The translations under genes and the position numbers were made by a program. The notes below the pieces were generated by a model. The model was not told the DNA's origin and made no database searches. It was given only the letters and a program-made list of their open reading frames with translations. A stretch of 64,000 nt of DNA from Neiella litorisoli (GTDB lineage Bacteria; Pseudomonadota; Gammaproteobacteria; Enterobacterales; Neiellaceae): contig NZ_JACXAF010000009.1 of assembly GCF_014773395.1 (NCBI RefSeq), forward strand, positions 1 to 64,000, in the 5' to 3' direction. This document shows, in pieces, positions 1 to 22,092 of this stretch; within the stretch, counting starts at the first letter, position 1, and each line of letters begins with the position of its first letter.

Positions 1-216
1 ATCGCCTGAGTCCGATTCATCATCACCAGTTGAGCTATCGCCTGAGTCCGATTCATCATCGCCAGTTGAATCATCGCCTGAGTCCGATTCATCATCGCCA
101 GTTGAGCTATCGCCTGAGTCCGATTCATCATCGCCAGTTGAATCATCGCCTGAGTCCGATTCATCATCGCCAGTTGAGTCATCACCTGAGTCCGATTCAT
201 CATCGCCAGTTGAGTC
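1..216. repeat. Six tandem 36-bp repeats coding an acidic 12-residue unit
   Basis: Six back-to-back 36-bp units occur at 1-36, 37-72, 73-108, 109-144, 145-180 and 181-216, differing at only a few positions, and they continue past the left edge. On the minus strand each encodes TGDDESDSGD plus two residues from S/D. The near identity at DNA level suggests recent expansion by slippage or unequal recombination. They lie in the linker of the CobT-like protein. Confidence 0.9.
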
Positions 217-879
217 ATTGCTACTAGGTGGTGGCGGCTCATTGGCTTTGTGCTCCAATTCATCCGCAATCTGCCTAGCGACATCAAGTGCGTCACGAGT
301 GGATTTCAGGTTCGGGATTGCACTCATTGCGCCTTCAATCAGATCAACCAACTCGCCTGCCCCTGCCTGTAACAAGAGCTCGCGTGTTGCTTCTGCGATG
401 TGAGTTAAGGGATAACCATGTTTTTGGTAAGCGCTACGTCCGTGATACAAGACATAGTTTATTACCAGTTCTGGCACACTCGCTTCAGGTCTAGGCATGG
501 CGAAAATTTCACGCTCAATGCATTCACTGATCGTATTACCAAGTGTTTTTGCACAGCCAGGGAACTTGGCAGCAACGGCATTCTCCATTCGAACATCTTC
601 AATACGATTAAGTAGTGAAAAAACCAAACGGCTCTCACCCATCGCGCAGTGTTGATCTGTAAATGCCAAGTGCCCATGCTCATGGTCACACAACCCTTCC
701 ACCAGACGTCGATAGCTTGGATCTTCAAGGTTTCCTTTAGGTAGAAAGACCCGCTGGAAATCGGTAGCAGGAGCGAAATGATCCTGCAGCACATGTTGAA
801 TATCACTCCGACGGCCAATAACACTAGCCATCGCTTGCAGCCGCTTTTGAAAACGGCGTTGCTGTCTTGCGTTATGCAT
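1..879 (-). CDS. CobT-like protein, N-terminal part (runs off left edge)
   Basis: The reading frame starts at an ATG at 879 behind GGAGGAGACA and stays open to the left edge, so only the N-terminal half is visible. Early on it shows the motif CDHEHGHLAFTD, a metalloprotease-like H-E-x-G-H sequence typical of CobT-type VWA proteins of mobile elements. It then becomes Pro-rich and runs into an acidic repeat of 12 residues (TGDDESDSGDSS-like). In CobT relatives an acidic linker precedes a C-terminal VWA domain, which would lie outside the window. The neighbours are DUF3150 and a CobS-like AAA+ ATPase, the usual partners. By analogy with chelatase-type AAA+/VWA pairs it probably acts as a remodelling complex rather than in cobalamin synthesis. 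Its substrate is unknown. Because the repeat is also open in other frames, the frame choice rests on the motif, SD and conserved leader. Confidence 0.8.
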   Translation of the reverse strand, partial: MHNARQQRRFQKRLQAMASVIGRRSDIQHVLQDHFAPATDFQRVFLPKGNLEDPSYRRLVEGLCDHEHGHLAFTDQHCAMGESRLVFSLLNRIEDVRMENAVAAKFPGCAKTLGNTISECIEREIFAMPRPEASVPELVINYVLYHGRSAYQKHGYPLTHIAEATRELLLQAGAGELVDLIEGAMSAIPNLKSTRDALDVARQIADELEHKANEPPPPSSNDSTGDDESDSGDDSTGDDESDSGDDSTGDDESDSGDSSTGDDESDSGDDSTGDDESDSGDSSTGDDESDSGD

Positions 880-950
880 ATTGTCTCCTCCAAGAGAGTT
901 GCCCAAACCAATGGTTGCTCAAACAGCGAGCAACACATTTAAGTTTGGTA
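880..950 (-). promoter_or_regulatory. Structured leader and SD of the cobT-like gene
   Basis: The leader RNA contains a 7-bp hairpin (GTTGCTC/GAGCAAC) inside a weaker outer stem (CCAAAC/GTTTGG), followed by TCTTGGAGGAGACAA (895 down to 881) directly before the ATG at 879. This SD block is the same as in the DUF3150 and cobS-like leaders and is the exact complement of the predicted small RNA at 7360-7374. Confidence 0.65.
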
Positions 951-956
951 GGGGGT

Positions 957-2000
957 TTACAGGCCTGCTCCCCATGAGTCGAGGTCATCCTGTTGATTGA
1001 TATCGCCGGTTTCCAAGACTTCAAACAAATCGAGTGCTACAGGAGCAACGCTTTGTTCTTGTGCTTCGGAAATAGGATCGGCTTCTGAGGTTGGATCAAA
1101 TGTAAAGAGTGGGGCATGACCCTCTGCAAAGCTTCGGATCATATCTTCGTTGCCCAGCGCCAACACAAAGTGCTGCAAACGAGCAAAGTCTTCACCTTCG
1201 ATGTAACCAGCCTTTGGTAGCTTCGCTAACTCAGCTCGCGCTGCATCAACGATGTTGCCAATGGATGGATCTAGAAAGCTCAGGGATGTGAGCTTTGACA
1301 TCAATCGGTCAATGCCTGAGTTAATCACTGACTGCTTGATCTTCTCCCGCAATTTCTTGCTGCCTCCGGGAAGCGGCTCAAAAAAACTTTTGGTGTATAC
1401 ATCAGATGCCATTTTCGCGACATCTTCATATACCAATCCAATGGTCTCCTCGATAACCTCATCGGCATCACCTTCATCGGCCGGCGCAAACGCTAGCGGC
1501 GGTGAGGCTTTGAAGATGAAGCTTTTCTCGAATTGCTCTTTGTTCCAAGAGTACTCTCGGATTAACTCCTCGACCTCTTGGTTCTCAGCGACATGACCCG
1601 CCATGAGCTGGTCAAAATCCTTCACGACCTTACTTAGCTTGTCGTAAAAGCGTTCTTCTATGTCGTTGATCCCATCGTGAAGCTCATCCAACCGACTAAC
1701 CGGCAGTAATGTTGCTCCGCCCGCCACTTTGACACCCAAGCTGGCAAGCAGACGCTCAACAGCACGTGCGGCATTTCCTTTGAACGTCAGGTGTTCTTGA
1801 GGAAACCAGTTGAAACTGGTGCCTCGCATAAGCTTGGACTCAATTTGTTGACCATCAATGATGATTTTCTTTGAGTTCAATGATTTTTCACCGCAACAAC
1901 CTCGGACAGTTACTGCGACAAGACAACAGCCTTGTTTCAGTGCTTCTAAACGGTCTAGGGTGCTTTGAGTGTTTTGTTTTGCGTCGTCTAAGTTAGACAT
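957..2000 (-). CDS. DUF3150 family protein
   Basis: A 347-residue soluble protein without signal peptide or membrane segment. Its overall character and its position between a CobS-like ATPase and a CobT-like protein match DUF3150, a family of unknown function that accompanies these two on SXT-, IncA/C- and phage-like elements. The N-terminal third contains a CC pair (CLVAVTVRGCCGEKSLNSKK). The middle is rich in helix and the C-terminal 60 residues are acidic. The start is the ATG at 2000, preceded by GGAGGAGACA with 5 nt spacing. It is followed by the cobT-like gene. Co-regulation is implied by the shared leader. The function cannot be stated beyond participation in the CobS/CobT module. Confidence 0.75.
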   Translation of the reverse strand: MSNLDDAKQNTQSTLDRLEALKQGCCLVAVTVRGCCGEKSLNSKKIIIDGQQIESKLMRGTSFNWFPQEHLTFKGNAARAVERLLASLGVKVAGGATLLPVSRLDELHDGINDIEERFYDKLSKVVKDFDQLMAGHVAENQEVEELIREYSWNKEQFEKSFIFKASPPLAFAPADEGDADEVIEETIGLVYEDVAKMASDVYTKSFFEPLPGGSKKLREKIKQSVINSGIDRLMSKLTSLSFLDPSIGNIVDAARAELAKLPKAGYIEGEDFARLQHFVLALGNEDMIRSFAEGHAPLFTFDPTSEADPISEAQEQSVAPVALDLFEVLETGDINQQDDLDSWGAGL

Positions 2001-2070
2001 GATTTGTCTCCTCCAAGAGATTTATCGGGAGACAGATCTATCCCCGACAGGGTAGAAATTGTCTCCCTGT
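2001..2070 (-). promoter_or_regulatory. Two-stem leader with SD, DUF3150 gene
   Basis: In RNA sense the leader has an outer stem GGGAGACA (2067-2060) with TGTCTCCC (2034-2027), and an inner stem CTACCC with GGG..TAG (2055-2038). After a short spacer comes TCTTGGAGGAGACAA (2018-2004) and the ATG at 2000. The 3' arm TGTCTCC is also complementary to GGAGACA in the SD block, so closing the outer stem and masking the SD are mutually exclusive. This is the clearest member of the leader family seen upstream of 3751, 4356 and 6702. Confidence 0.7.
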
Positions 2071-2102
2071 TTAGGGGTTGTGCAACTGAAGGTTGCTAGG
2101 TG

Positions 2103-2708
2103 TTAGAACGGGATATCGAACTTGATAACACCATCCCACACGTTGAATGCCCAAGGCGCTCCTTTCGTGTTTTCGGTGTAACCTTTGTTGATTTTTTCCG
2201 TTATTTTCTGGTTGTACTTTTGCCCAGACTCAGTGAGCGATTGACCCATGGTTCTAACATAGATCCATTCATCATCACTCAATTCACTGCGCCACCAAAC
2301 GTGCAGCGTGCAATCATCTTGCTTGATCGCCCACTGTTTGCCATCGGGATGTTCGAACATTCGAAACCCCTCTCGCACATCTTTGAACACCTGCCCGCTG
2401 TCATCCAAAGCGCAATGACATCGCAACGCAGGCTTGGCGGCTTGGCCTAATGAAAGACGCACCATTTCAATCAAGTCCCACCCTTTTTGCATAAAGCGTT
2501 CTCTTGCCTTTATGCCCTCTAGGTAGCTCACTTCATTGACACTGCCAATGATGTCGTTGTCATCAAACTCCACAAATACCGACTTCTGGCTTGAGATATT
2601 ACGAATCGCAAAGTGTCTCTTGCCATTTGGCAGCTCAGCAGTTAACCGCTCGAACAGTTTTCCCTCCCACTCTTTAAGCGGGATTGAAGCAGTGTTCGAG
2701 CTAACTAC
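2103..2708 (-). CDS. ORF in -1 frame after cobS, probably translated by frameshift
   Basis: About 200 codons are open in the -1 frame directly after the cobS-like stop codon. The protein-like sequence begins right after the stop (PLKEWEGKLFERLTAELP) and runs on to FNVWDGVIKFDIPF. No ATG, GTG or TTG occurs in frame until a GTG at 2571-2573, about 45 codons in and without a clear SD. Starting there would discard a normal-looking N-terminus. A CTG at the codon for GKL has GGGAGGG upstream and is a weak alternative start. The simplest reading is a C-terminal extension of the AAA+ ATPase made by -1 frameshifting at 2708-2714, giving a fusion of about 550 residues. I do not recognise the domain. 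Confidence 0.7.
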   Translation of the reverse strand, partial: VVSSNTASIPLKEWEGKLFERLTAELPNGKRHFAIRNISSQKSVFVEFDDNDIIGSVNEVSYLEGIKARERFMQKGWDLIEMVRLSLGQAAKPALRCHCALDDSGQVFKDVREGFRMFEHPDGKQWAIKQDDCTLHVWWRSELSDDEWIYVRTMGQSLTESGQKYNQKITEKINKGYTENTKGAPWAFNVWDGVIKFDIPF

Positions 2709-2714
2709 TTTTTT
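2640..2714 (-). promoter_or_regulatory. Candidate programmed -1 frameshift signal
   Basis: The last sense codons of the cobS-like gene are GCA AAA AAG followed by TAG, so the slippery heptamer A AAA AAG (2714-2708) sits in the correct phase. After 6 nt (TAGTTA) begins a perfect 9-bp stem, GCTCGAACA (2701-2693) with TGTTCGAGC (2656-2648). It can be extended by AGTTA/TAACT past a 3-nt bulge. Inside the loop a second hairpin CCCGCT/AGTGGG can form. Heptamer, spacer length and downstream stem match the dnaX/IS3-type layout. No upstream SD-like stimulator was seen. Confidence 0.7.
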
Positions 2715-3751
2715 GCGGCGTTACTGATCAGCTCTTTCACGGGCTCATCAATACTTTCGCTCCAGATAGCAGTCACAATCGCTTGTGCAGCATCTTCGTC
2801 TTCAGCATCAACGTTACCCCAAAAGGCAAAGCTCAGAGAGTCTCGCGGTGTGCAGTTCATGCCAAAGCGCAGCATGTAATATGCCCATGCTACTAAGTCG
2901 GCCGTACTGAACGTGCAACGAATCGAACCTTCTATCTTGCCGCTTCGATCTTCGCCTAAAAGCGCGTCTCGAAAGGCATTCGCCGTTTCAACCATCCGCG
3001 TAATGATCACAGTTGGTAGTTGGGTGAATTGATTAGACAAGATTTTGGTCTCATGAATTGCATCCGGGTACTTCGTCTCAAACCAACCAATGCGACGACG
3101 AAGCGCAGCATCAAGTGCTTGAGAAGTGATGTACCTGTCATGACCGCCCTCACCTTTGGTGTTGGATGTCGTCATGATGTAGCACTGCGGATGTTTTTTC
3201 AGTGTGCCGAGCCCTGGGACATGCCATGGTTTCCCTTCCAAAATATTATGAAGGGACGTTGTCATGTCATCCGTGGCTTTATCCACTTCGTCCAGCAGCA
3301 GCAATCCACCATCGCGATAAGCTTGAGCAGCTGGCAGCAAAATTCGCTGCGTTACTACCTGACCATTTTCAGCAACCAGTTCTTGCTCGGTTTCTAAATG
3401 ATGGCCACGCTTTTCTGGTGTGATCGACACTTTGTAGAACGGCAAGTTAAATCGCGATGCTAACCACATCGCAAACTCAGTCTTACCAGTGCCGGTTTCT
3501 CCCCAAAGCCCAAAGACCTTGAGTTGTGCTGGCGCCTGCAACCACATGACGGCAAACCGCAAAATGTCATCTTGCGGCAAGTAGTTCGGGTTGGGGCTGA
3601 TGCAATCTGCATGGCGGTGCTTGCGCATCTTGAAATCAGCCTCTTTCCATTCAGCTTTCTCAGGAAAGATATGCTCGCCTTTCACAATACCCATTTGGGT
3701 GTAATCGACAGGTTGCACTTGCTGCAATTGCGCGGCTGGTTGAGTTGTCAT
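2705..3751 (-). CDS. CobS-like AAA+ ATPase
   Basis: A 348-residue MoxR/CobS-type AAA+ ATPase. Walker A GETGTGKT lies at about residues 84-91 and Walker B GGLLLLDEVDKA at about 148-159, followed by a sensor-1-like MTTSN and an arginine-rich ALRRRIGWFE. The start at 3751 (MTTQPAAQLQ) is set by GGAGGAGACA 3 nt upstream; a longer frame to 3838 would run through the structured leader. Partners are the DUF3150 and CobT-like proteins downstream. Such ATPases hand energy to VWA proteins to insert metal or remodel complexes; on mobile elements the target is not known. The unusual feature is the 3' end, a frameshift-type sequence that can extend the product into the next ORF. Confidence 0.85.
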   Translation of the reverse strand: MTTQPAAQLQQVQPVDYTQMGIVKGEHIFPEKAEWKEADFKMRKHRHADCISPNPNYLPQDDILRFAVMWLQAPAQLKVFGLWGETGTGKTEFAMWLASRFNLPFYKVSITPEKRGHHLETEQELVAENGQVVTQRILLPAAQAYRDGGLLLLDEVDKATDDMTTSLHNILEGKPWHVPGLGTLKKHPQCYIMTTSNTKGEGGHDRYITSQALDAALRRRIGWFETKYPDAIHETKILSNQFTQLPTVIITRMVETANAFRDALLGEDRSGKIEGSIRCTFSTADLVAWAYYMLRFGMNCTPRDSLSFAFWGNVDAEDEDAAQAIVTAIWSESIDEPVKELISNAAKK

Positions 3752-3824
3752 AGGTGTCTCCTCCAAGAGAGTAAATTGGGAGATACACCGATCCCCAAAA
3801 CGGGCATCTTCAAATGTATCCCCG
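3752..3824 (-). promoter_or_regulatory. Two-stem leader with SD, cobS-like gene
   Basis: The outer stem GGGGATACA (3823-3815) pairs with TGTATCTCCC (3787-3778). The inner stem GAT.CCC pairs with GGGGATC (3808-3790). The SD block TCTTGGAGGAGACA (3768-3755) precedes the ATG at 3751. Compared with the DUF3150 leader a G-C pair of the outer stem has become T-A, a compensatory change that supports a real RNA fold. Confidence 0.7.
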
Positions 3825-3831
3825 TATTGGG

Positions 3832-4356
3832 TTACCACTGAGCGTTGTACTCAATGGGAGTTAAGTCGAACGACAACACTTCCGGCAGTCGCAGAATCGC
3901 TTTCATCAAAGCGGCTGCAGTGTCGGAGAGTTCGCGACCTTGTTTTTTGGCAATATGGGCAATTTCGAGTCGGATCAGATTTGCATCTTTTCCGAACGCT
4001 CGACAGTAGGTTTCAAACTGTTGTGAACAAACCCACTCCAACTCACGCGTATAAGTGCCTGAGCCAGTGCTTGAGTCTCGCAACAAACGTAACGAGTACT
4101 CCAAGTGCCCTTCGAGAAACTGCTCAATATCGTCATCAGTCCAGCGCATGTAAAACACGCCTTCCTGACCATCGAAGCATGGATCAAATGAGAAATTCTC
4201 ATCGTAGGCTTCGTTTGGAACTGTGCTCTGTCTCTCTAGCCGTTCTTGAATGTAGTCATCCAGCGAATGGGGTTTGTAATCGCTGTCCGACGACAAAGGG
4301 TGAAGTTGCTTTTTGCCGCGTCGTTTCGATGCGGGTACAAAGTTAACCTTTCCCAT
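3832..4356 (-). CDS. Hypothetical protein, 174 aa, first in CobS operon part
   Basis: A soluble protein with a basic N-terminus (SKRRGKKQ) and an acidic central part (FDPCFDGQEGVFYMRWTDDD). No membrane segment, signal peptide or known motif was recognised. The start ATG at 4356 follows AGGAGGAGACT with a short spacer; a longer frame to 4422 would cover the leader hairpins. Stop TAA at 3832-3834 lies just upstream of the cobS-like leader, so the two are probably cotranscribed. Its place in the module suggests an accessory role, but no function can be given. Confidence 0.7.
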   Translation of the reverse strand: MGKVNFVPASKRRGKKQLHPLSSDSDYKPHSLDDYIQERLERQSTVPNEAYDENFSFDPCFDGQEGVFYMRWTDDDIEQFLEGHLEYSLRLLRDSSTGSGTYTRELEWVCSQQFETYCRAFGKDANLIRLEIAHIAKKQGRELSDTAAALMKAILRLPEVLSFDLTPIEYNAQW

Positions 4357-4445
4357 AGTCTCCTCCTGATATGGGTTACCCAACATCACAGGTGAAGACA
4401 GATCGAGCCCTCGACAGGACAAGACAATCTCACCCTGCTGGGTCT
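4357..4445 (-). promoter_or_regulatory. Leader of the same family, divergent copy
   Basis: In RNA sense, GGTGA (outer 5' arm) can pair with TCACC, and between them lie CCTGTCGAGGGCTCGATCTG with a CGAGGGCTCG hairpin and the family signature GATCTGTCT. The SD block is AGGAGGAGACT, matching the small-RNA complement over 9 nt (GGAGGAGAC). It is a weaker member than the copies at 2001 and 3752. Confidence 0.45.
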
Positions 4446-4459
4446 AGTGGGGTTAGCAA

Positions 4460-4633
4460 TTAAGCGAGAAAGATTTCCTCGTTCGCTTGCTGTTGGTAGC
4501 GCTTTGCTTTAATCAAAGCTCGCGCCATCTGTGCCGGCGGTAAAATGGCATCTTTCAATCGACGATAAAGCTTGCGCTCACGACGACGAAGATACGCACC
4601 GTTGGCTTTAGAGGTTTTGGATGCTCTAGACAT
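4460..4633 (-). CDS. Small basic protein, 57 aa
   Basis: The product is strongly basic, with AYLRRRERKLYRRLKDAI in the middle, and ends QQQANEEIFLA. The ATG at 4633 follows GGAGGAGGCT at good spacing; a longer frame to 4744 would include the leader. The helical, Arg/Lys-rich composition would suit nucleic-acid binding, but this is inference from composition only. It is the most upstream gene of the minus-strand CobS/CobT series. Confidence 0.6.
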   Translation of the reverse strand: MSRASKTSKANGAYLRRRERKLYRRLKDAILPPAQMARALIKAKRYQQQANEEIFLA

Positions 4634-4730
4634 AGCCTCCTCCGTGGTGGTTAGGTCAAAAAGACCATTGGGCAGCCTGTATACACAGGTCATTGAAGCG
4701 TTTTCTCTTGCGCGACCAAGGCACATTGAA
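4634..4730 (-). promoter_or_regulatory. Leader hairpins upstream of the 57-aa gene
   Basis: GACC and GGTC can form an outer stem around the short palindrome CCTGTGTATACAGG, echoing the outer-plus-inner architecture of the other leaders though with different sequence. GGAGGAGGCT precedes the ATG, only 7 nt of which match the small-RNA complement. No clear promoter was identified. Confidence 0.35.
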
Positions 4731-4939
4731 TTCAGACAACTCAATGCACATCTGCATCATTGATTAAGACACTCGAAGCGAGTCGAGACAGCGAACTGCA
4801 AAGTCAAAACAAATCATGCTGAGATTTTCAGATGCCAGGCTTGGCAAAGGGAGGCACTTTCGTGCATTCGATAGTTTTGCAGTGCTTACCACATCACTTT
4901 GGTTACTCTTTGTGAAAAGCTCCAAGCTGGAACTTTTTA

Positions 4940-5320
4940 GAAAGAGCAAACGAATTTGCTCTTAAATGGACAGCCCTGTTAGGAAGGCAAGCCCAAACGT
5001 TTTTCCAAGGATAGATCCAAGGTCAACGCGTAGCCTCAACAAAGTTGAGGTGATCTTCGGCTCATTAAATGAGTCCGTCACCGACAGAAACTGACGGTCG
5101 CTGATAACTGCATTACTCAGCTGTAATGGGAAACACAACACAAGATGCGAGGCATTTCTCTAATCCATTTCAGACGAAATGGAAGTGTCTTTATTTTCAC
5201 ACAAGACAAAAGTGCCGATCAGATGATCGATTGAGAAACTGGATGTTCGGGAAAGCACTTTTGACAGAAAAGCACTTTCCAAAACCACCAGCAGGTCGTT
5301 TTGGCTCTTATTTAAGAGGC
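4940..5320. repeat. Hairpin-dense non-coding region
   Basis: At least seven separate short inverted repeats follow each other: 4942-4963 (9 bp, CGAA loop), 5034-5050 (CCTCAAC/GTTGAGG), 5059-5074, 5075-5097 (CCGTCA/TGACGG), 5111-5128 (CATTAC/GTAATG), 5165-5182 (CCATTT/AAATGG), 5250-5280 (GGAAAG/CTTTCC) and 5305-5318. No convincing gene lies here on either strand; a plus-strand frame starting at 5126 lacks an SD and overlaps the real gene at 5355. Such density suits a structured RNA, or a single-strand promoter or priming site in a leading region. Confidence 0.5.
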
Positions 5321-5354
5321 TATGCAGGAGTATTTCTTGCGATGGGAAGCCGCA

Positions 5355-5549
5355 CTAACGGCATTCGTTGACTCGGGCGCTTGCGACCACAATATCCATT
5401 GGGCCGATAAGCTTGCGCTGTCGGCTGGCTGCTTGAACGCGAGCAATGATTTCATCATCGTTCAGCGAATAATCAAGCTCCAACGGGATGGTCGCGCCAT
5501 CAGCAATGCTAATGGTTCCTGAGTCTATATTAAGCGAATGTTGCTTCAT
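5355..5549 (-). CDS. Hypothetical protein, 64 aa
   Basis: A small acidic protein (MKQHSLNIDSGTISIADG...). The ATG at 5549 has an excellent SD, AAGGAGG with 5 nt spacing. No recognised family and no membrane segment. A long imperfect hairpin lies just upstream (5569-5633) and may control it. It belongs to a row of very small minus-strand genes between the CobS module and ssb. Confidence 0.65.
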   Translation of the reverse strand: MKQHSLNIDSGTISIADGATIPLELDYSLNDDEIIARVQAASRQRKLIGPMDIVVASARVNECR

Positions 5550-5568
5550 GAGGCCTCCTTAGAATGCA

Positions 5569-5633
5569 AAGTGGGATCGCTTCGCAAATGCACTTTGAAT
5601 TTTCAAAAATGCACTTGAAAAGCGACCCCACTT
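5569..5633. repeat. Long inverted repeat upstream of the 64-aa gene
   Basis: AAGTGGGATCGCTT (5569-5582) pairs with AAGCGACCCCACTT (5620-5633) at 13 of 14 positions. The loop contains a near-direct repeat of AAATGCACTTTGAA. It precedes the minus-strand gene at 5549, so it is either a 5'-UTR structure or a protein-binding site. Confidence 0.55.
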
Positions 5634-5676
5634 CTTAAGAAGACTTGGTTTCGCTAACCGGCCAAACGACTAAAGA

Positions 5677-5817
5677 TTAGTGTTTGGGCTTTTGTGGGTG
5701 GGATTTGTCATAAGCTGTCTTTGCTACGATGCTGCCTCCAACTAGCACAGCCACAAACAAACACACACTTAAGATCACCCACGCATAAATCGTCATTGGT
5801 GCTACCACTGAATTCAA
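5677..5817 (-). CDS. Tiny membrane protein, about 46 aa
   Basis: One hydrophobic helix (YAWVILSVCLFVAVLVGGSIV) is followed by a short Lys/His-rich tail ending PKH. AAGGAGG lies 4-5 nt before a TTG at 5817, which I take as the start; an ATG at 5796 is in frame seven codons later. Single-pass inner-membrane peptide of unknown role. Too small for most gene finders. Confidence 0.55.
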   Translation of the reverse strand: MNSVVAPMTIYAWVILSVCLFVAVLVGGSIVAKTAYDKSHPQKPKH

Positions 5818-5866
5818 TGGACCTCCTTAATATTGTAGCAAACATGATCGACAGTCAGAAAGACTG

Positions 5867-6079
5867 TCAATCTGAATACAACAACATGACGATGTTACCG
5901 CCAATAAACGCCACCATAAGAACCGCACCTATAACCAATGACCAGACTGCAAAATGCAACTGAGACACCGACAAAGGGCCAATTCCGATAGTAGTTAAAC
6001 CAGCGACAAACAGGCTTGCTCCGATTGCTAGCAATACAGCCAGAACCGAACCAAACAAAACTTGAGTAAATTTGTTCAT
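5867..6079 (-). CDS. Small membrane protein, 70 aa, two helices
   Basis: Two hydrophobic stretches are visible, at about residues 8-33 and 45-67 (LVIGAVLMVAFIGGNIVMLL), with a short charged N-terminus. ATG at 6079 with GGGGAGCGAGAC upstream. No family recognised. It lies immediately downstream of the ssb terminator and upstream of another tiny membrane gene. Confidence 0.6.
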   Translation of the reverse strand: MNKFTQVLFGSVLAVLLAIGASLFVAGLTTIGIGPLSVSQLHFAVWSLVIGAVLMVAFIGGNIVMLLYSD

Positions 6080-6138
6080 GTCTCGCTCCCCATTTCTCTT
6101 ACTTCAAACTTCAAGAGAAAGAGACAGAACTCCCCTTT

Positions 6139-6161
6139 GAAAAAGGCGAGAAGCTCTCGCC
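6139..6161 (-). terminator. Rho-independent terminator after ssb
   Basis: On the minus strand GGCGAGAGCTTCTCGCC forms a 7-bp GC-rich stem followed by TTTTT, just past the ssb stop codon. Confidence 0.75.
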
Positions 6162-6174
6162 CCTTTCAGAATAA

Positions 6175-6702
6175 TTAATAGTTGTATGCTCCTTCATTGA
6201 ATCCACCCGGTTGTGGCGCAGGTTGCTGTGGAGCACTTTGATAACCGCCTTGTTGCTGCGGTTGTGCAGGCTGTTGATTGTGTTGCGGAGCAGCTTGTTG
6301 GTTGGTCTGCGGTGCAGTTTGTTGCGCACCTAAGAATCCGGCTGCTTTCAAACAATCTTTGGCTGCCTTTGGAATATGGACAGCGACTCGATAACCTTGC
6401 ACTTTCATCGCTTGGCGATCTTGCTGGGTATCCTTGTCCTTCCATTTTTCGACGACGAGCTTGCCTTCAATTTCGACATAGTCACCTTTTGCCAATGTCG
6501 CTTTCACTGACTTCAAGAATTTGTCAGCAACTTTGACTTCGACAAAGTAAACACGGTCAACCCACTGCTGGGTTTGTTGATCGCGATAGCCATCATCAAC
6601 CGCAATACTCAATGAACCGAAGTAACCGCGCTGACCATTTTTTACGTCGACGTTTGAGATGTTTCCAGAAATACAAACATCATTTTTCTTTGCCATTTTC
6701 AT
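6175..6702 (-). CDS. ssb: Single-stranded DNA-binding protein
   Basis: 175 residues. The N-terminal 115 residues look like an OB-fold (YFGSLSIAVDDGYRD, then KGDYVEIEGKLVVEKWKDKD, matching the SSB core G-x-x-V-x-V-E-G-x-L). The C-terminal third is a Gln/Pro/Gly-rich linker. The usual acidic DDDIPF tip of bacterial SSB is absent; the protein ends GGFNEGAYNY, so it may not recruit host SSB-interacting proteins in the usual way. ATG at 6702 with GAGGAGATAACGCT upstream. It would coat the incoming or displaced strand in transfer and recombination, and fits with the exo-bet system at 57.5-59.4 kb. Structured leader and palindromes lie upstream; a terminator follows. Confidence 0.85.
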   Translation of the reverse strand: MKMAKKNDVCISGNISNVDVKNGQRGYFGSLSIAVDDGYRDQQTQQWVDRVYFVEVKVADKFLKSVKATLAKGDYVEIEGKLVVEKWKDKDTQQDRQAMKVQGYRVAVHIPKAAKDCLKAAGFLGAQQTAPQTNQQAAPQHNQQPAQPQQQGGYQSAPQQPAPQPGGFNEGAYNY

Positions 6703-6810
6703 AGCGTTATCTCCTCATTACTTATGCTTAAAGCAGGGGTAATTCACCGTACTGCGTGCAGGAAGCATTGGAGACAGATCGCCCCAGTGAGGTCGATTCA
6801 ATCTCCACCC
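6703..6810 (-). promoter_or_regulatory. Leader of the same family upstream of ssb
   Basis: In RNA sense GGAGA (6806-6802) pairs with TCTCC (6774-6770), enclosing ATCGACC (6797-6791) with GGGGCGAT (6785-6778). The signature GATCTGTCTCC is exact. About 50 nt separate this fold from the ssb SD (GAGGAGATAACGCT). The inner stem uses different bases from the DUF3150 and cobS copies but the same pairing, supporting a shared structure. Confidence 0.6.
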
Positions 6811-6828
6811 ACACTGGGTGCCAATTCA

Positions 6829-6877
6829 CTATGAGAATTAATTTCTCACAGGTTTTCGACCGTGCAACCGCACAGTC
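6829..6877. promoter_or_regulatory. Two palindromes upstream of the ssb leader
   Basis: TGAGAA-N5-TTCTCA lies near 6830-6846, and the quasi-palindrome GACCGTGCAACCGCACAGTC at about 6858-6877. Their location upstream of the ssb leader suits operators for an element-encoded regulator. No convincing -10/-35 pair was identified beside them. Confidence 0.35.
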
Positions 6878-6959
6878 AACCGCAGGGTTTGTCACCCATT
6901 GGTTAGAAATGATTTCTCGCGAGTCATTAGCGATCTAGACAGATCTGAAAAGGAAAAAT

Positions 6960-7318
6960 CATTGCTGAAATTCGAGGCACATGATGCATAACACACCATT
7001 TAGCCAAAGCGCAGGCCTTGGCTAAATGCAGTGAAAAACATACAGAAATCCCGCCGTCCGCGTCGGGTAAACCGAGCTTCCGGTGAGCAATATACGAAGG
7101 GTAGTAACACTGTTACTGAGCAACTTGACGTTGCGTTAGGGAGGGATATACATCCACATTTAAGGCGATAAAGCCACAGGGTCGTTGCACGAAGCAATCT
7201 ATAGGTAACGATAACCAACGCGCCCGATTCATGCAACGGACTTTTGGGTCAACTAACGCGCCATTTTGCGATTTTTTTCATGCAACCCATCAATTCACGC
7301 AGTCTAGGAAGTTTGAGA
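6960..7318. other. Gene-free region with palindromes
   Basis: No supportable gene. Notable are an 11-bp perfect inverted repeat CATTTAGCCAA (6997-7007)/TTGGCTAAATG (7018-7028), a hairpin GCAAC/GTTGC near 7119-7133, a palindrome around AGTAACACTGTTACT (7103-7117), and two imperfect direct repeats of the type AACGCGCC..ATT..CATGCAAC at about 7219-7240 and 7255-7286. This could be an origin, a transfer site or a regulator-binding region; nothing decides between these. Confidence 0.35.
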
Positions 7319-7348
7319 TTGACACGCAGCTAACAGAGGCTCTATAAA
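7319..7348 (+). promoter_or_regulatory. Consensus sigma-70 promoter of the small RNA
   Basis: TTGACA (7319-7324) and TATAAA (7343-7348) are separated by 18 nt. The predicted start is near 7354-7356. Both hexamers are at or one step from consensus, stronger than anything else seen in this region, and no ORF follows. Confidence 0.75.
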
Positions 7349-7353
7349 GAACA

Positions 7354-7437
7354 CCAGCGTTGTCTCCTCCAAGATATAACGCAGTCAAGGAGGGGTCCTT
7401 GGCGGGAACTGAGCACCTTCGGGTGCTCTTTTTCTTT
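7354..7437 (+). ncRNA. Predicted ~80-nt trans-acting anti-SD small RNA
   Basis: The unit lies between a consensus promoter and a strong terminator. It folds into three hairpins. In SL1, GCGTT (7357-7361) pairs with AACGC (7378-7382), displaying the pyrimidine-rich loop TCTCCTCCAAGA. SL2 is CAAGGA-GGGG-TCCTTG (7386-7401). SL3 is the terminator. The loop region TTGTCTCCTCCAAGA (7360-7374) is exactly complementary, over 15, 15 and 14 nt, to the SD leaders of the cobT-like (879), DUF3150 (2000) and cobS-like (3751) genes. Weaker 7-9-nt matches exist at 4356, 4633 and ssb. It would therefore block ribosome binding on several mRNAs of the same element. An alternative is that it is a leftover copy of a leader in antisense, but the flanking promoter and terminator argue against that. 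Confidence 0.65.
7411..7437 (+). terminator. Rho-independent terminator of the small RNA
   Basis: GAGCACC-TTCG-GGTGCTC followed by TTTTTCTTT, a 7-bp stem with a stable UUCG-type loop and T-tract in plus orientation only. Confidence 0.9.
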
Positions 7438-7454
7438 GTCAGGCTCACTCAACC

Positions 7455-7799
7455 CTATCCTGCCGCGACAGCAGTCATTCTCTCATCCCACGCCATCAAC
7501 ACTTCATCGGCCATATTTCTCTCTTTACAACTAATCTGACGCAACACTTTTTTGGTACTCACCACTGGCGCTTGATAAATCTGCCGTGTACGTAAGGTGT
7601 CGCTATTGCTCACCAAAACATGCACGCCGCGATTGGAAGCTATGTGGCATGCCTGCGCTAAGCGCTGCTGGTCATTCTCTGTGAAACCGCCTTGGGCATA
7701 AGCCGTAAAGTTGCTCGTTTCTGAGCTACCAATGTACGGCGGGTCGAAATAACCCCAGGCTCCTGCGGGAAGTTCAGCCAGGACTCGCTCAATTGACAT
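7455..7799 (-). pseudogene. Dam-type adenine methylase, C-terminal fragment
   Basis: This carries the catalytic motif DPPY (YFDPPYIGSSETSNFTAYAQ), followed by the typical Dam tail VLVSNSDT and MADEVLMAW. It corresponds to the last 40% of a D12-class N6-adenine methyltransferase. The matching N-terminus (KWAGQKTKL) lies at 9146-9238 on the other side of an insertion sequence, and the roughly 140 residues that should join them are missing. The gene is therefore destroyed, not merely split. The apparent ATG at 7799 is unlikely to be a true start. Confidence 0.8.
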
Positions 7800-7879
7800 C
7801 CTCCCCCACCTGACTCAGTGGGGCATTCCCATTACTATGGGCGCACACTAAATTGCTTTAGTTGCAAGTTCCTGATTCA
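7800..7879 (-). ncRNA. Candidate omega/right-end guide RNA of TnpB
   Basis: In this family the RNA scaffold covers the 3' end of tnpB and the right end, with the guide taken from the flank. Here the stretch includes the GTGGGG/CCCCAC hairpin and would run into the dam fragment at about 7797. Placement is by family knowledge; only the hairpin is seen directly. Confidence 0.4.
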
Positions 7880-9058
7880 TCAAGCAGCTAATGCCGACTC
7901 TCCACAGGCTAACAAGCGGTGTCCCCGCTCTAAAATATTTAGTGCACCAACAATATCTGCATTGTTGGTGTAACCACATTCAACACACTCAAACTGCGCT
8001 TGAGTTTGACGGTTTTCTTTCGACACATGACCGCAGCAAGGGCATGTTTGGCTGGTGTACTGTGCTGGTACAGCGACAACCAAGCCACCATTCCATAATT
8101 GCTTATACTCAAGCTGCCTTCTGAACTCATACCAACCCTGATCGAGTATAGACTTGTTCAGTCCTGACTTGGCTTTCACGTTCTTGCCGTGTTGCTCTGC
8201 ATCACCTTTCGCTGACTTGGACATATTTGATACCCGTAAATCTTCAATTGCTATCATTGCGTGATTCTTGCTGATCTCAAAAGATGATTTATGTAGGTAG
8301 TCCTTGCGGCAGTTGGCGATACGGGTGTGCAGCTTTTGAGTCTTGGCTTTCTGCTTTTGCCAGTTAGCAGAAAACTTAACTTTTTTGGACAGCTTACGTT
8401 GCTCAATAGCTAGGCGTTTTTCGTGCTTACCAAATGCGTTAAGCGGTTTAAGGTGCGAGCCATCTGATAGCGTTACAAACTTTGCTATGCCAACATCAAC
8501 ACCCACAGCAGATGTTGAACTATGCTTTGGCTCTGCAATCTCTTGCTCAACCTGAAAAGATATATACCAGTGACCTGATTTGAAGCTAACGGTGCAGTTC
8601 TTGATTGTGCCTTGTACGCCTTGGGACTTACAAAACTTCACCCAACCTAGCTTACTAGGCAACTTGACGCGGTTGCCCTCAAGTTGACAATACTTGTTGA
8701 AGTTAACAAAGCGGATTGAATCTTGGTTTTTGCCTTTCTTCTTGAATCTAGGTTTTTCAGCCGAGAGCGACCTGTCGAAGCATCGCATCCAAGCGCTATG
8801 CAAATCTTTAAGTTTTTGCTGTAGATTGTCGGTGTAGGCTTCCTTGAGCCAAGCTAGATCGTCTTGCTTTTTCCACTGCGTTACCAACTTATTAAGCTCA
8901 AATGCACTTGGGATCTTCTCGCCAGAATCCAGTTTCTCTAAGCAGTAGCGCAAGCCTTGATTCCACACAAATCGAGCGTGACCGCAAAGCACAGCAAGCC
9001 TAGCCGTTTGCTCAGCGGTCGGTTGGAGTCGAAATTTGTAAGCTTTTCGGATATGCAT
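7880..9058 (-). CDS. tnpB: TnpB, RNA-guided nuclease of IS605-type element
   Basis: 392 residues, full length. The RuvC-like catalytic residues are present: D188 in GVDVGIAKF, E272 in IAIEDLRV and D368 in NNADIVGALN. The zinc ribbon CPCC...CVEC (C339, C342, C358, C361) lies between the last two. The N-terminal part starts MHIRKAYKFRLQPTAEQ, a classical OrfB helix-turn-helix start. A frame extending upstream to 9238 is only a chance fusion with the dam start. TnpB cleaves DNA guided by the right-end RNA and helps retain the element; transposition would need a TnpA in trans. All catalytic residues are intact, so it may be active. Confidence 0.9.
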   Translation of the reverse strand: MHIRKAYKFRLQPTAEQTARLAVLCGHARFVWNQGLRYCLEKLDSGEKIPSAFELNKLVTQWKKQDDLAWLKEAYTDNLQQKLKDLHSAWMRCFDRSLSAEKPRFKKKGKNQDSIRFVNFNKYCQLEGNRVKLPSKLGWVKFCKSQGVQGTIKNCTVSFKSGHWYISFQVEQEIAEPKHSSTSAVGVDVGIAKFVTLSDGSHLKPLNAFGKHEKRLAIEQRKLSKKVKFSANWQKQKAKTQKLHTRIANCRKDYLHKSSFEISKNHAMIAIEDLRVSNMSKSAKGDAEQHGKNVKAKSGLNKSILDQGWYEFRRQLEYKQLWNGGLVVAVPAQYTSQTCPCCGHVSKENRQTQAQFECVECGYTNNADIVGALNILERGHRLLACGESALAA

Positions 9059-9145
9059 ACTGTGATTATATACAGCGCTAACGCAAGATGCTATCGCACC
9101 TTGGGCTATTCCCCCTCCCTGCTGCTTCGCAGGGAGCCTTCTAGC

Positions 9146-9238
9146 CATTAAGGATGGGCCAACGGGCAGGTGTGCATGAATCCAAGGTATGAGCTTGGTT
9201 TTCTGGCCCGCCCATTTGAGCCACGACTTGGTATACAT
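9146..9238 (-). pseudogene. Dam-type adenine methylase, N-terminal fragment
   Basis: About 31 codons starting at ATG 9238 (MYTKSWLKWAGQKTKLIPWI). The KWAGxK motif is the S-adenosylmethionine-binding N-terminus of Dam. In this copy KWAGQK replaces the usual KWAGGK. The start overlaps the helicase stop (TAATG), so the two were translationally coupled before the insertion. Beyond this fragment the frame enters the insertion sequence. Confidence 0.75.
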
Positions 9239-11372: not shown

Positions 11373-11669
11373 ATGGCTACTAATGATTGCGAGAGACTAA
11401 CAACTCGCATGAGCACTGAAACAAAAGAGCTACTTGAGAAGGCGCTTGTTTTGTCGGGGCACTCAAACTTGAACAGTTTCATCACTAGCGCAGCTGCGCT
11501 GTCAGCGAAGAAACTGATTGAGCAAGAGGCGAATATTCATCTTAGTCAAGATGAGGCAGTTGATTTCCTAACCGCCTTAGATAGACCAAGAACCGCAAAC
11601 GCGCATTTCCTTAAGGCTGCTCGCAGACACAAGGAAACTATTACTAATGCAGATTACGCAACTAGATAA
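11373..11669 (+). CDS. tacA: DUF1778/TacA-type antitoxin
   Basis: 98 residues. The N-terminal half (RLTTRMSTETKELLEKALVLSGHSNLNSFI) is a ribbon-helix-helix DNA-binding segment of the DUF1778 family; the C-terminal part (LDRPRTANAHFLKAARRH) is the typical toxin-binding tail. SD AAGGAGAG precedes the ATG. It overlaps the toxin gene by 23 nt in another frame, the usual arrangement for coupled translation. It neutralises the acetyltransferase toxin and with it represses the operon. Confidence 0.85.
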   Translation: MATNDCERLTTRMSTETKELLEKALVLSGHSNLNSFITSAAALSAKKLIEQEANIHLSQDEAVDFLTALDRPRTANAHFLKAARRHKETITNADYATR

Positions 11670-12156
11670 AACGCGACACAACAGAGAGAAATTTGACTGC
11701 GGCGTTCGCGCCCTTAATGAGTACTTAAAGAAAACAGCTCGCCAGCACGACAGACTCGACCTATCGAGAACATTCGTCCTGACGGACCAGAATTCCCCTC
11801 AAGACATCTTAGGGTTCTACTCACTGTCCACCTGCAGAATCGACTGGCCAGAGTTACCCGAAAATCTCCGAAAAAAGTACCCGAACACGAGCATGTCCGC
11901 CGCGCTCATCGGGCGACTCGCTGTTGACCTGAAAAAGCAAGGCCAAGGGTATGGAGGAGATTTACTCATCGATGCGATAACAAATATTGTCAGCTCAGTC
12001 GCGCACCTCGCTTTACCACTGATAGTCGTCGACGCTAAGGATGACAAGGCTCAGCGGTATTATGAGAAATTCGGCTTTGAACCCATCGCTCCAAGTAGTA
12101 GGCGACTCTTCATGACAGTCAAGCACGCCAAAGAAATGCTCGACAGCGTTTCGTAA
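11647..12156 (+). CDS. tacT: GNAT-type toxin, TacT family
   Basis: 169 residues. The acetyl-CoA site is LAVDLKKQGQGYGGDLLIDA, containing the Q-x-x-G-x-G/A signature, and the late tyrosine motif is AQRYYEKFGFEP. TacT toxins acetylate the amino group of aminoacyl-tRNA and stop translation. The start at 11647 lies inside tacA. Such pairs stabilise plasmids and are common in Vibrio cassette arrays; no attC site with a VCR signature was found directly after it. Confidence 0.85.
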   Translation: MQITQLDKTRHNREKFDCGVRALNEYLKKTARQHDRLDLSRTFVLTDQNSPQDILGFYSLSTCRIDWPELPENLRKKYPNTSMSAALIGRLAVDLKKQGQGYGGDLLIDAITNIVSSVAHLALPLIVVDAKDDKAQRYYEKFGFEPIAPSSRRLFMTVKHAKEMLDSVS

Positions 12157-20325: not shown

Positions 20326-21617
20326 AATGTTGGTAATCCTTTATTGTCGACGAGCCATTCATTGCCGATCTCCATCACATGGAAATAGGCTTCTTTTGTC
20401 TGGATGACGGTGGGAGTTTGCTGAACAAAAAATCGATCTTTCAGGTCTTTCTTCAGTAAATAGACCTGCATGCCAAATCGTTGCGTTAAGCTATCCAACT
20501 GCTTGCTGCCGTTACGCTTATCAATATGAGTCGCGATAGGCATGATCTTGCGATAGCCGAGTGTTGGAATCGTATCCAGCGCCCATTGGAGTTGATGACG
20601 GTTGCTCGGATCGAATACCAATAGAGTCAGCGGATAGTTCGCATCTTTAATCGGATTGATGATCTGACCTTTACGACCTAAAACCTGATCACCGCGTTTG
20701 ATGTCAGCATTCAATCGTACCGTCGGATCGATGTACCACTGTTTGTGTTTTTTAGCTTTCGGTAAGTTAGAAAACTCACCATGAGACGCCCAGAACCGCT
20801 TGATCGCTCGCTTCTTAGCGCGCTCAAAGTCATAATTGGCCAAGCGTTGCTGCATGAGAAGCTTGGCATCTGGCTCGGCAATGTCGTAAACCTTGCCGAT
20901 AACACCAAAGTCTTTGCCTTGCTCATCAGGGTGAAGCTCTATTTGCTCACTGAGCCATTCTTTGGAGTACAGCCCGCGAACCACCCATTGCTTTTGTCCG
21001 TCGCGGTAAGCGATAGCTGGTACGCGATTGATACTAAAGGCTTTGAACTCATCGGGATGAAGCCCTATTTTGACATCATCACCATAATCAGAAACTACCT
21101 GCATCATCGCCTTGAACGTGGCCGCAACTGGCGAATCAGCCTCTATGAATCCGCGAAGGTAAATCGGCATATCTCGATCACGTGCATAACGTATAGCTCG
21201 ACCTAGCTCCGATGAACTCATTGAGGAACTGATAAACATCATCCAGCCTTCTGTGTTCGCTGAATCGTTGCAGTCTTCAGCCTCTAGATCAGTCGCTTTG
21301 GGCACATCCATGGCTAACGGTACATTTAGATCACCAAGAGTAACTGCGTCCTGAAACGACAACTGCTCGTTGATTGTCGGGTTCACGGACTGATTAAGAT
21401 ATTGCTCAGCACGTTTTGCAGCCTCCAGCGCCTCTCCTTCGTATTGCGCCACACGATCCGCAAGCGCTTTTTCATCGTAATCAGTCCAACCTTGCTCTTT
21501 TGCAAACTGGATGGCTTCTTCTGCTGTACGGTTGGTTGACTGAGCATGATTTTCGGTTGCCTTGGAAGGCAATATCAAAACCGCCAGCACCAACGCCATA
21601 CCCTTAAAACAGCGCAT
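20322..21617 (-). CDS. traW: TrbC-TraW fusion, pilus assembly protein
   Basis: 431 residues with signal peptide (MALVLAVLILPSKA). The first half contains a TrbC-type thioredoxin-like segment (WMMFISSSMSSSELGRAIRY ... YLRGFIEADS); the second half has the TraW signature YIDPTVRLNADIKRGD followed by GRKGQIINPI. In F these are separate proteins; SXT-like elements carry the fusion, as here. ATG at 21617 with GGGAGAGC upstream; it overlaps the peptidase gene before it. It acts in the periplasm in pilus assembly. Confidence 0.85.
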   Translation of the reverse strand: MRCFKGMALVLAVLILPSKATENHAQSTNRTAEEAIQFAKEQGWTDYDEKALADRVAQYEGEALEAAKRAEQYLNQSVNPTINEQLSFQDAVTLGDLNVPLAMDVPKATDLEAEDCNDSANTEGWMMFISSSMSSSELGRAIRYARDRDMPIYLRGFIEADSPVAATFKAMMQVVSDYGDDVKIGLHPDEFKAFSINRVPAIAYRDGQKQWVVRGLYSKEWLSEQIELHPDEQGKDFGVIGKVYDIAEPDAKLLMQQRLANYDFERAKKRAIKRFWASHGEFSNLPKAKKHKQWYIDPTVRLNADIKRGDQVLGRKGQIINPIKDANYPLTLLVFDPSNRHQLQWALDTIPTLGYRKIMPIATHIDKRNGSKQLDSLTQRFGMQVYLLKKDLKDRFFVQQTPTVIQTKEAYFHVMEIGNEWLVDNKGLPTL

Positions 21618-22092
21618 ATGCTCTCCCTATGATGGCGTCTGTGCTCACGGTTCCCCAGAAGCGCGAGTCATAGCTAAATCGTGTTGTTCCCGATAAGAAC
21701 ACTTCGCTCGCCGGAACAGTGAGGCGGCGTTCTAATTCTTCGGGCGCTTGCTCGACGATGATCGGCAATTCGCCAAAGAAAAGAGGAATGGGCTTGGACT
21801 TGTTGACAGTGATTGAATACCGGTCGATATCGACGGTATCGCCGCTAACGGCACGTACCACTTTGACTAAGCGTGTGCCTTGCGGAATCTTGGTATCCGC
21901 TCGCAGCATTTCGTATGCCATTAAATTGCCGCGCGCTATGTCCTTATCCCACGTATCGACGAGGTACCAATGGGTGAATAGGCAGCTAGGTTGTTGAGGA
22001 TCAAATCCGATGTAAAAGCGCTGAGCGAGCCCCCATACGCACAGTGCGGGAATCCCTAAACACCAAAATGCAACTTTCAATTGGCGGTGCAT
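21604..22092 (-). CDS. trhF: TrhF/TraF-type signal peptidase (S26 family)
   Basis: About 162 residues from ATG 22092, or 176 if a TTG at 22134 is used; AGGAGG lies between them at a spacing that suits neither well. N-terminal membrane helix (VAFWCLGIPALCVWGLA), catalytic Ser in QQPSCLF, Lys in LVKVVRAVSGDTV and the late block SYDSRFWG. Such conjugative peptidases process pilin or cyclise it. It heads transfer block 1. A separate full-length signal peptidase lies next to the pilin gene. Confidence 0.75.
   Translation of the reverse strand: MHRQLKVAFWCLGIPALCVWGLAQRFYIGFDPQQPSCLFTHWYLVDTWDKDIARGNLMAYEMLRADTKIPQGTRLVKVVRAVSGDTVDIDRYSITVNKSKPIPLFFGELPIIVEQAPEELERRLTVPASEVFLSGTTRFSYDSRFWGTVSTDAIIGRAYALF

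Follow-up and report, generated by a model that had tools for sequence, protein, structure and literature searches.

The 64,000-nt window analysed here (bases 1-64000 of C46, a large plasmid-like contig of 184,088 bp) carries a predicted small RNA (hereafter referred to as the sRNA) with a hairpin loop complementary to the Shine-Dalgarno (SD) regions of a whole module of genes. We put at roughly three in four the probability that this sRNA belongs to a plasmid-borne family of trans-acting sRNAs jointly repressing translation from repeated bistable leaders. The sRNA from 7319-7437 would act in trans, its 5' hairpin loop pairing with the SD regions of the genes for a CobS-like AAA ATPase, DUF3150, CobT-like and RadC-like proteins, of ssb and of others, and this pairing would most likely block translation of the module genes together. 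A first-pass annotation of this DNA had proposed an element-encoded, sRNA-like unit aimed at the SDs of the entire module, and this proposal holds, 10 of the 11 module SDs being complementary to the sRNA. The coordinates of the unit, its targets in the window and the leaders are given in Table 1.

Table 1. Coordinates in the window of the sRNA unit, the complementary SD regions and the leaders
Feature	Position	Strand	Observation
sRNA promoter TTGACA-N18-TATAAA	7319..7348	+	TTGACA 7319-7324, 18-nt spacer, TATAAA 7343-7348, read in the sequence
sRNA (predicted)	7355..7437	+	about 83 nt, 5' end placed from the -10 box; fold z -4.6
sRNA 5' hairpin	7357..7382	+	presents anti-SD loop TTGTCTCCTCCAAGA at 7360-7374
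sRNA second hairpin, loop GGGG	7384..7403	+	predicted folds
sRNA intrinsic terminator GAGCACC-TTCG-GGTGCTC-TTTTTCTTT	7411..7437	+	UUCG cap, T-run to 7437
CobT-like gene SD block	881..895	-	15-nt complement of the sRNA
DUF3150 gene SD block	2004..2018	-	15-nt complement; Pfam DUF3150 E 1.5e-26
CobS-like AAA gene SD block	3755..3768	-	14-nt complement; AAA_5 E 7.9e-15
Gene 3832-4356 SD block	4358..4366	-	9-nt complement
ssb SD region	6704..6717	-	14-pair sRNA duplex, 7-nt exact run; Pfam SSB E 2.4e-10
CobT-like gene leader	880..956	-	same SD block; upstream structure atypical
DUF3150 bistable leader	2001..2072	-	GGGAGACA / cis anti-SD TGTCTCCC / SD GGAGGAGACA
cobS bistable leader	3752..3831	-	GGGGATACA / cis anti-SD TGTATCTCC / SD
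Gene 3832-4356 leader	4357..4459	-	sequence

Anatomy of the sRNA unit and its match to the module SDs

The promoter and terminator sequences reported by the first-pass annotation are present as described, no convincing ORF lies between them, and the first hairpin does present the 15-mer TTGTCTCCTCCAAGA. The plus-strand ORFs located just upstream from the sRNA are all small and apparently spurious (e.g. 6756-6938, 60 aa). At the sequence level, the unit therefore has the features of a trans-acting base-pairing sRNA, with its own promoter and terminator and without a convincing ORF. It is not encoded on the strand opposite a target, as a cis-encoded plasmid antisense RNA would be. The promoter is one of only two sigma-70-type promoters on C46 with an 11/12 match in a simple scan; it is not among the matches of a standard promoter scan, because that scan requires a T at the last -10 position. 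The predicted 84-nt RNA has a folding energy of -37.3 kcal/mol (z = -4.6), and equally good folds were obtained in none of 200 shuffles. In several relatives, the hairpins at the place of the second hairpin carry, by eye, a UGGUU-type loop. A search of the whole window against Rfam at the gathering score gave 0 matches, and a relaxed search of window positions 1-8000 and stretches L050, L182, L183 and L288 gave sub-threshold matches only.

The complete host genome contains five copies of the 15-mer TTGTCTCCTCCAAGA, all of them on C46 (7360, 881, 2004, 177679 and 182048). The four copies other than that at 7360 are SDs of minus-strand genes, those at 177679 and 182048 belonging to further module genes, and 14 of the 15 nt are found at 3755-3768. 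For the 11 module SDs, the longest exact complements of the sRNA are 16, 16, 15, 15, 14, 14, 11, 10, 9, 9 and 7 nt, the loop complementing SD regions by 9-16 nt in 10 of the 11 module genes of C46. The CobT-like, DUF3150 and CobS-like genes had been named as the main targets, with complements of 15, 15 and 14 nt at their starts; all three are confirmed at these lengths, but the set is larger, six genes having complements of 14-16 nt (three of them outside the window) and ten having at least 9 nt. Of the shorter complements proposed at 4356, at 4633 and at ssb, the first stands at 9 nt, the ssb region is matched exactly over only 7 nt of its longer duplex, and the gene starting at 4633 has a complement of only 7 nt. 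The CobT-like gene scores below the Pfam CobT cut-off (16.8 of 26.1 bits), and a RadC-like gene, recognised by eye, is a further module member. The module spans the contig ends if C46 is circular, which is not proven, because the contig stops within a repeat in the CobT-like gene; the distance of 0.6 to about 15 kb from the sRNA to the matched SDs takes C46 as circular. The short repeat GATGATGAATCGGACTCAGGCGA... lies within the CobT-like gene (window 1-230), where the contig breaks, and the final 20 nt of C46 recur near the contig start.

Apart from the sRNA hairpin, the only 28-nt windows of either strand of C46 with complements of at least 9 nt to 9-10 of the 11 SDs were those antisense to the SDs themselves and, near 11,960, one coding site. 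On C46, with its 109 terminators, a coordinate-free search for 9-mers lying no more than 120 nt upstream from a terminator and having complements preceding start codons gave the sRNA unit the top rank, with nine targets, tied with a coding site at 11893. Of the 13 replicons or parts searched in this way, six (C46, G001, G018, pVb1182, P. spongiae and P. donghaensis) had an sRNA-like unit as their top match, the P. spongiae and P. donghaensis inputs being parts already known to hold a copy. In a folding-corrected analysis of sRNA interactions, all eight scored module starts ranked in the top 22 of 204 C46 starts, with ssb in third place; the other three module genes were unscored, their frames running off the contig or having fewer than 60 codons. 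The fourth and sixth ranks were occupied by non-module starts, which counts against the sRNA reading. The mean interaction with the 11 module leaders was -9.25, versus -6.24 for shuffled sRNAs (sd 1.49; best of 100, -10.0), so that the advantage over shuffles is no more than moderate once internal folding is counted. Seven of the 11 module starts of the window plasmid were placed 2-4 nt downstream from the ATG, and the analysed windows therefore include part of the start codon at these seven starts.

Recurrence on ten elements and co-variation with the SDs in trans

The same sRNA architecture was found on nine other elements (from Pseudoalteromonas, Vibrio, Photobacterium, G001 and G018), making ten with that of the window. 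In the plasmids of P. spongiae and P. donghaensis, the loop block occurs once outside the module, in a hairpin followed by a terminator. The same-genus genome G001 has two tandem copies (L035, 18013-18098 and 18236-18360) with identical anti-SD blocks and different 3' parts. G018 and pVb1182 have one copy each, and one sRNA each was located in the gap upstream from lepB in P. damselae p1, P. toruni, V. campbellii pIFL1 and V. cholerae pW7G. The sRNA lies divergently upstream from a lepB/S26 signal peptidase gene in all nine of the other elements; this is not its position in the window plasmid, in which lepB is at 21607-22080. The five Vibrio and Photobacterium copies have in common, by eye, a -35-like CTTGC(G/A)GAA, followed 16-18 nt on by a TA-rich -10-like box. 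According to the predicted folds, the window RNA has one anti-SD loop, and the RNAs of pVb1182, pW7G and pIFL1 add a hairpin with a CTCC-containing loop.

The loops of these RNAs differ between plasmids, together with the SDs that they face. The paired loop and SD are TGTCTCCTCCAAGA and TCTTGGAGGAGACA in the window, GTCTCCTCCAAAGA and TCTTTGGAGGAGAC in P. donghaensis, CTCCTCCACGAG and CTCGTGGAGGAG in G001, and CTCCTCCACAG and CTGTGGAGGA in pVb1182. The first-pass annotation had suggested, as a check, that loop and SD should change together in relatives, and the outcome was positive: on the basis of the mean exact complement, the element's own sRNA was the best for 8 of 10 SD sets and, for eight plasmid types, the true assignment of RNAs to SDs was the best of 40,320 permutations, a result to which shared ancestry contributes. 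The RNAs of pVb1182 and pW7G, which have the same 5' segment, tie in fit, and the two exceptions are the SDs of pIFL1 and P. toruni, which prefer the RNA of a close relative. When duplex energy was used, the own sRNA was best for 7 of 10 SD sets, the SDs of P. spongiae preferring the window RNA. These SD sets exclude starts without GGAG or GAGG (kept per set: 15/15, 14/17, 14/15, 17/21, 18/22, 19/21, 10/17, 9/18, 9/9 and 26/26). The co-variation rests on few lineages of shared ancestry, and the codes of the window, P. spongiae and P. donghaensis are close. In general, complementarity to translation initiation regions exceeds chance and is kept by co-variation, with the shuffle control being weaker and shared ancestry included.

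A whole-replicon 9-mer search did not find the sRNA on the replicons of S. xiamenensis, S. aestuarii, S. algae, S. baltica and Alteromonas or on the IncC plasmid, all six of which carry the leaders described below. This absence is not firm, because the same search missed the pIFL1 copy, the RNA of which is long. The Photobacterium copies also escaped the 9-mer search, one of them because CAT directly precedes the loop. No such unit was seen near lepB in S. xiamenensis, S. aestuarii, S. algae and Alteromonas. V. gigantis and a second P. toruni plasmid were searched for the sRNA in pieces only. At position 24609 of S. baltica pSBAL11701 (NC_017577), CTCACTCCA adjoins a terminator and complements five SD-like sites; this unit is possibly a further, divergent sRNA, and is a weaker candidate.

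Direct DNA searches with the sRNA region returned nothing in plasmids and, in 99 genomes including that of the host, only its own locus and a 31-nt terminator-like match. No relative was identified by a CobS-based scan of genome contigs; in viral contigs, DUF3150 gave one weak piece and a Pseudoalteromonas CobS gave nothing. A pattern scan for the window SD block followed by a start codon identified 68 genome-contig and 63 viral-contig stretches with one site each (L061 and L065 being overlapping copies of one site on one contig). None of the stretches examined contained a second window-type SD, and no relative with the exact code was found among them. Exact 12-mers in two Vibrio plasmids were considered as sRNA copies and rejected, the matches viewed being SDs; the Vibrio RNAs match their SDs over fewer than 12 nt.

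Repeated leaders upstream from the module genes

The SD block complemented by the sRNA loop is itself part of a larger structure. Many genes of the module (by eye, about 7 of the 11 on the window plasmid) are preceded by a leader of about 75-100 nt containing three mutually complementary stretches, namely the SD, a cis anti-SD and a segment upstream from both, as in the cobS leader with its upstream segment GGGGATACA and cis anti-SD TGTATCTCC. Given this mutual complementarity, the anti-SD would either be captured by the upstream segment, leaving the SD free, or mask the SD and close the leader, and the leader may thus be a switch between open and closed forms. Of 117 leaders picked by eye, 104 have the 5' arm, and 87 of these have a stop triplet no more than 14 nt from it; the upstream and anti-SD windows overlapped in this count. 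The first-pass annotation had described the near-identical SD block as the target of the sRNA; the block retains that role, but it also forms part of a repeated leader that supplies an anti-SD in cis, a feature that had gone unmentioned.

Comparison of the segments across elements, with non-overlapping windows and all 166 listed starts from 11 elements, indicated that the cis anti-SD pairs better with its own SD than with those of other plasmids (-11.2 vs. -8.9 kcal/mol, p = 2e-11), as does the upstream segment with its own anti-SD (-16.4 vs. -12.7 kcal/mol, p = 5e-8). In an alignment of 21 hand-picked leaders, the helix between upstream segment and anti-SD was 79% paired and its co-variation score was higher than those of 499 of 500 shuffles and six slid registers; neither the number of pairs changed on both sides nor the number of pair types was better than in shuffles. 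The anti-SD:SD helix was 68% paired, and only one of 500 shuffles was not exceeded by its co-variation. Shifting the register by 2 columns raised the pairing to 76%, which we attribute to differences in spacing between SD codes. For either helix, shuffles do as well in two of the five co-variation measures, and RNAalifold yielded no consensus fold for the leaders. Over 16 replicons or parts, a strict signature scan for the three segments gave 113 matches and the shuffled controls gave 32; the scan was set aside as evidence, as pVb1182 (13 vs. 8) and S. baltica (5 vs. 5) were near the shuffles and only 3 of the 6 matches on C46 lay within the module.

The same layout, with other letters, was recognised by eye in module leaders of Shewanella, Pseudoalteromonas, Vibrio and Alteromonas plasmids, and also on the IncC plasmid and one further element, which looks SXT-like and which we take to be so. 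It was not obvious, by eye, in the module of an Aeromonas plasmid. Leaders are widespread before CobS/DUF3150/CobT-module genes (L050, L038, L030, L041-L046, L048 and L049), including replicons on which the sRNA was not found. The earlier remark that no such RNA is known on SXT/IncA/C-like elements therefore needs qualification: the leaders are present on the IncC plasmid and on the SXT-like-looking element, but a search of the entire IncC plasmid did not find the RNA.

This distribution bears on whether an RNA acting in trans is needed at all. The leaders might regulate alone, by translational coupling involving the stop-codon-proximal hairpins and the cis anti-SD, in which case the block at 7360 would be an accidental inverted copy of part of an SD between promoter-like and terminator-like sequences. 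The presence of leaders on Shewanella, Alteromonas and IncC plasmids on which the sRNA was not found is consistent with this explanation, as is the frequent proximity of a stop triplet to the 5' arm. Nevertheless, the identity of the 7360 block to an SD stops after 16 nt, without the surrounding leader structure, and an anti-SD hairpin with a terminator is found on nine other elements, its letters fitted to their own SDs. We therefore regard regulation by the leaders alone as improbable.

Proposed mode of action and relation to known systems

The reading that we prefer is that of an added trans repressor, with the sRNA reading the same SD block as the cis anti-SD. By eye, a small hairpin (UCUC-UUGGAG-GAGA) can hold the SD in its loop, which renders an initial loop-loop contact followed by full pairing plausible; such pairing would keep the ribosome off. 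As one RNA would serve many leaders, each plasmid should keep its own SD code, with the sRNA loop changing along with it, and the refitting of the relatives' RNAs to their own SDs suggests that the module is switched as one unit by the matching RNA. The repressive sign is plausible. Activation, with the sRNA binding the SD hairpin or competing with the cis anti-SD and thereby opening the leader, would fit the bistable appearance of the leaders and the letters common to the cis anti-SD and the sRNA loop, and the available part of one account of RNAIII of S. aureus describes both activation and repression by that RNA (PMC3861533). In the best targets, however, pairing covers the SD core, so that the ribosome should be blocked, and we consider activation very unlikely. 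We give similarly little credence to a role elsewhere, in replication or incompatibility control or as a protein sponge, with the SD match as a by-product: several copies carry extra UGGUU-loop hairpins and antisense RNAs often serve plasmid copy control, but it is the loop complementary to the SDs that co-varies, and the RNA adjoins lepB in all nine relatives.

Plasmid antisense RNAs of the CopA/RNAI type are short, have a recognition loop and are encoded opposite a single target, whereas the RNA described here is encoded at a distance from its roughly ten predicted targets. In riboswitch-like or coupled translational leaders, the SD is free or masked depending on the partner with which the anti-SD pairs. 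The module leaders follow the same principle of alternative SD, anti-SD and anti-anti-SD pairing, but are repeated before many genes of one module, start near the previous stop codon, have no known ligand and are accompanied by a matching RNA in trans. In its mode of action, the window RNA would be akin to RNAIII and to other sRNAs with C-rich anti-SD loops. The hairpin domains of RNAIII expose UCCC motifs that pair, in part through loop-loop contacts, with the ribosome-binding sites of a number of mRNAs, and these mRNAs are repressed, as far as the available part of the source goes (PMC3861533). RNAIII is the 514-nt effector of the agr system and acts on numerous virulence genes, whereas the RNA considered here is short, plasmid-borne and directed at one module with near-identical SDs, and its loop and SDs co-vary between plasmids. 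The sgm-sRNA of Salmonella Genomic Island 1 is likewise encoded by a mobile element and is linked to IncC plasmids; in the available part of its description, it is processed from the 3' portion of a transcript of 650-700 nt and needed for transfer, its action is said by the authors to be unlike that of classical regulatory sRNAs, and no anti-SD loop, such as that of the window sRNA, is described (PMC9299015). No publication recognisable as describing this RNA or leader was found in the literature searched, most subscription papers lying outside the reach of that search. With respect to RNAIII-type regulation, the distinguishing features are carriage by a plasmid, the facing of one module and co-variation with a shared SD code.

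Joint repression of this kind would constitute a new way of running a whole mobile-element module as one unit, across large plasmids bearing tra genes. It would provide a regulatory handle on the CobS/DUF3150/CobT module and predicts the timing of its expression after plasmid entry. The repeated leader extends to the IncC plasmid and the SXT-like-looking element, groups well studied for other reasons.

A further-reaching reading, which we hold only tentatively and consider on balance unlikely, is that of a private translation code read by a co-evolving sRNA, with RNA-timed zygotic induction, incompatibility at the RNA level and a second loop contact. If it were true, the module would stay silent under the sRNA in an established host; in a naive cell, which as yet contains no sRNA, an entering plasmid would translate the module at once, until the sRNA built up. 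As each plasmid has its own code, the sRNA of a resident would silence an incoming plasmid of the same code and spare those with other codes. The extra hairpins of the sRNA would provide the second contact: the second loops (UGGUU; GGGG in the window) may, tentatively, touch the 5' arm of the leader (AACCA; AACCCC in the window). Leaders with the UGGUU-AACCA contact, counted without a background control, numbered 10 of 15 in pVb1182, 9 of 11 in pIFL1 and 2 of 11 in the window.

Two other features of the window were noted. A D12-class DNA adenine methylase gene (7455-9238, minus strand) contains within it a TnpB/OrfB gene of the IS605 type, the ORF at 7880-9238 (minus strand) having a methylase-like N-terminus, by eye, followed by TnpB, and the C-terminal methylase piece being at 7455-7799. 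A pair of small ORFs at 11373-12156 (plus strand) resembles a DUF1778-type antitoxin and a GNAT toxin.
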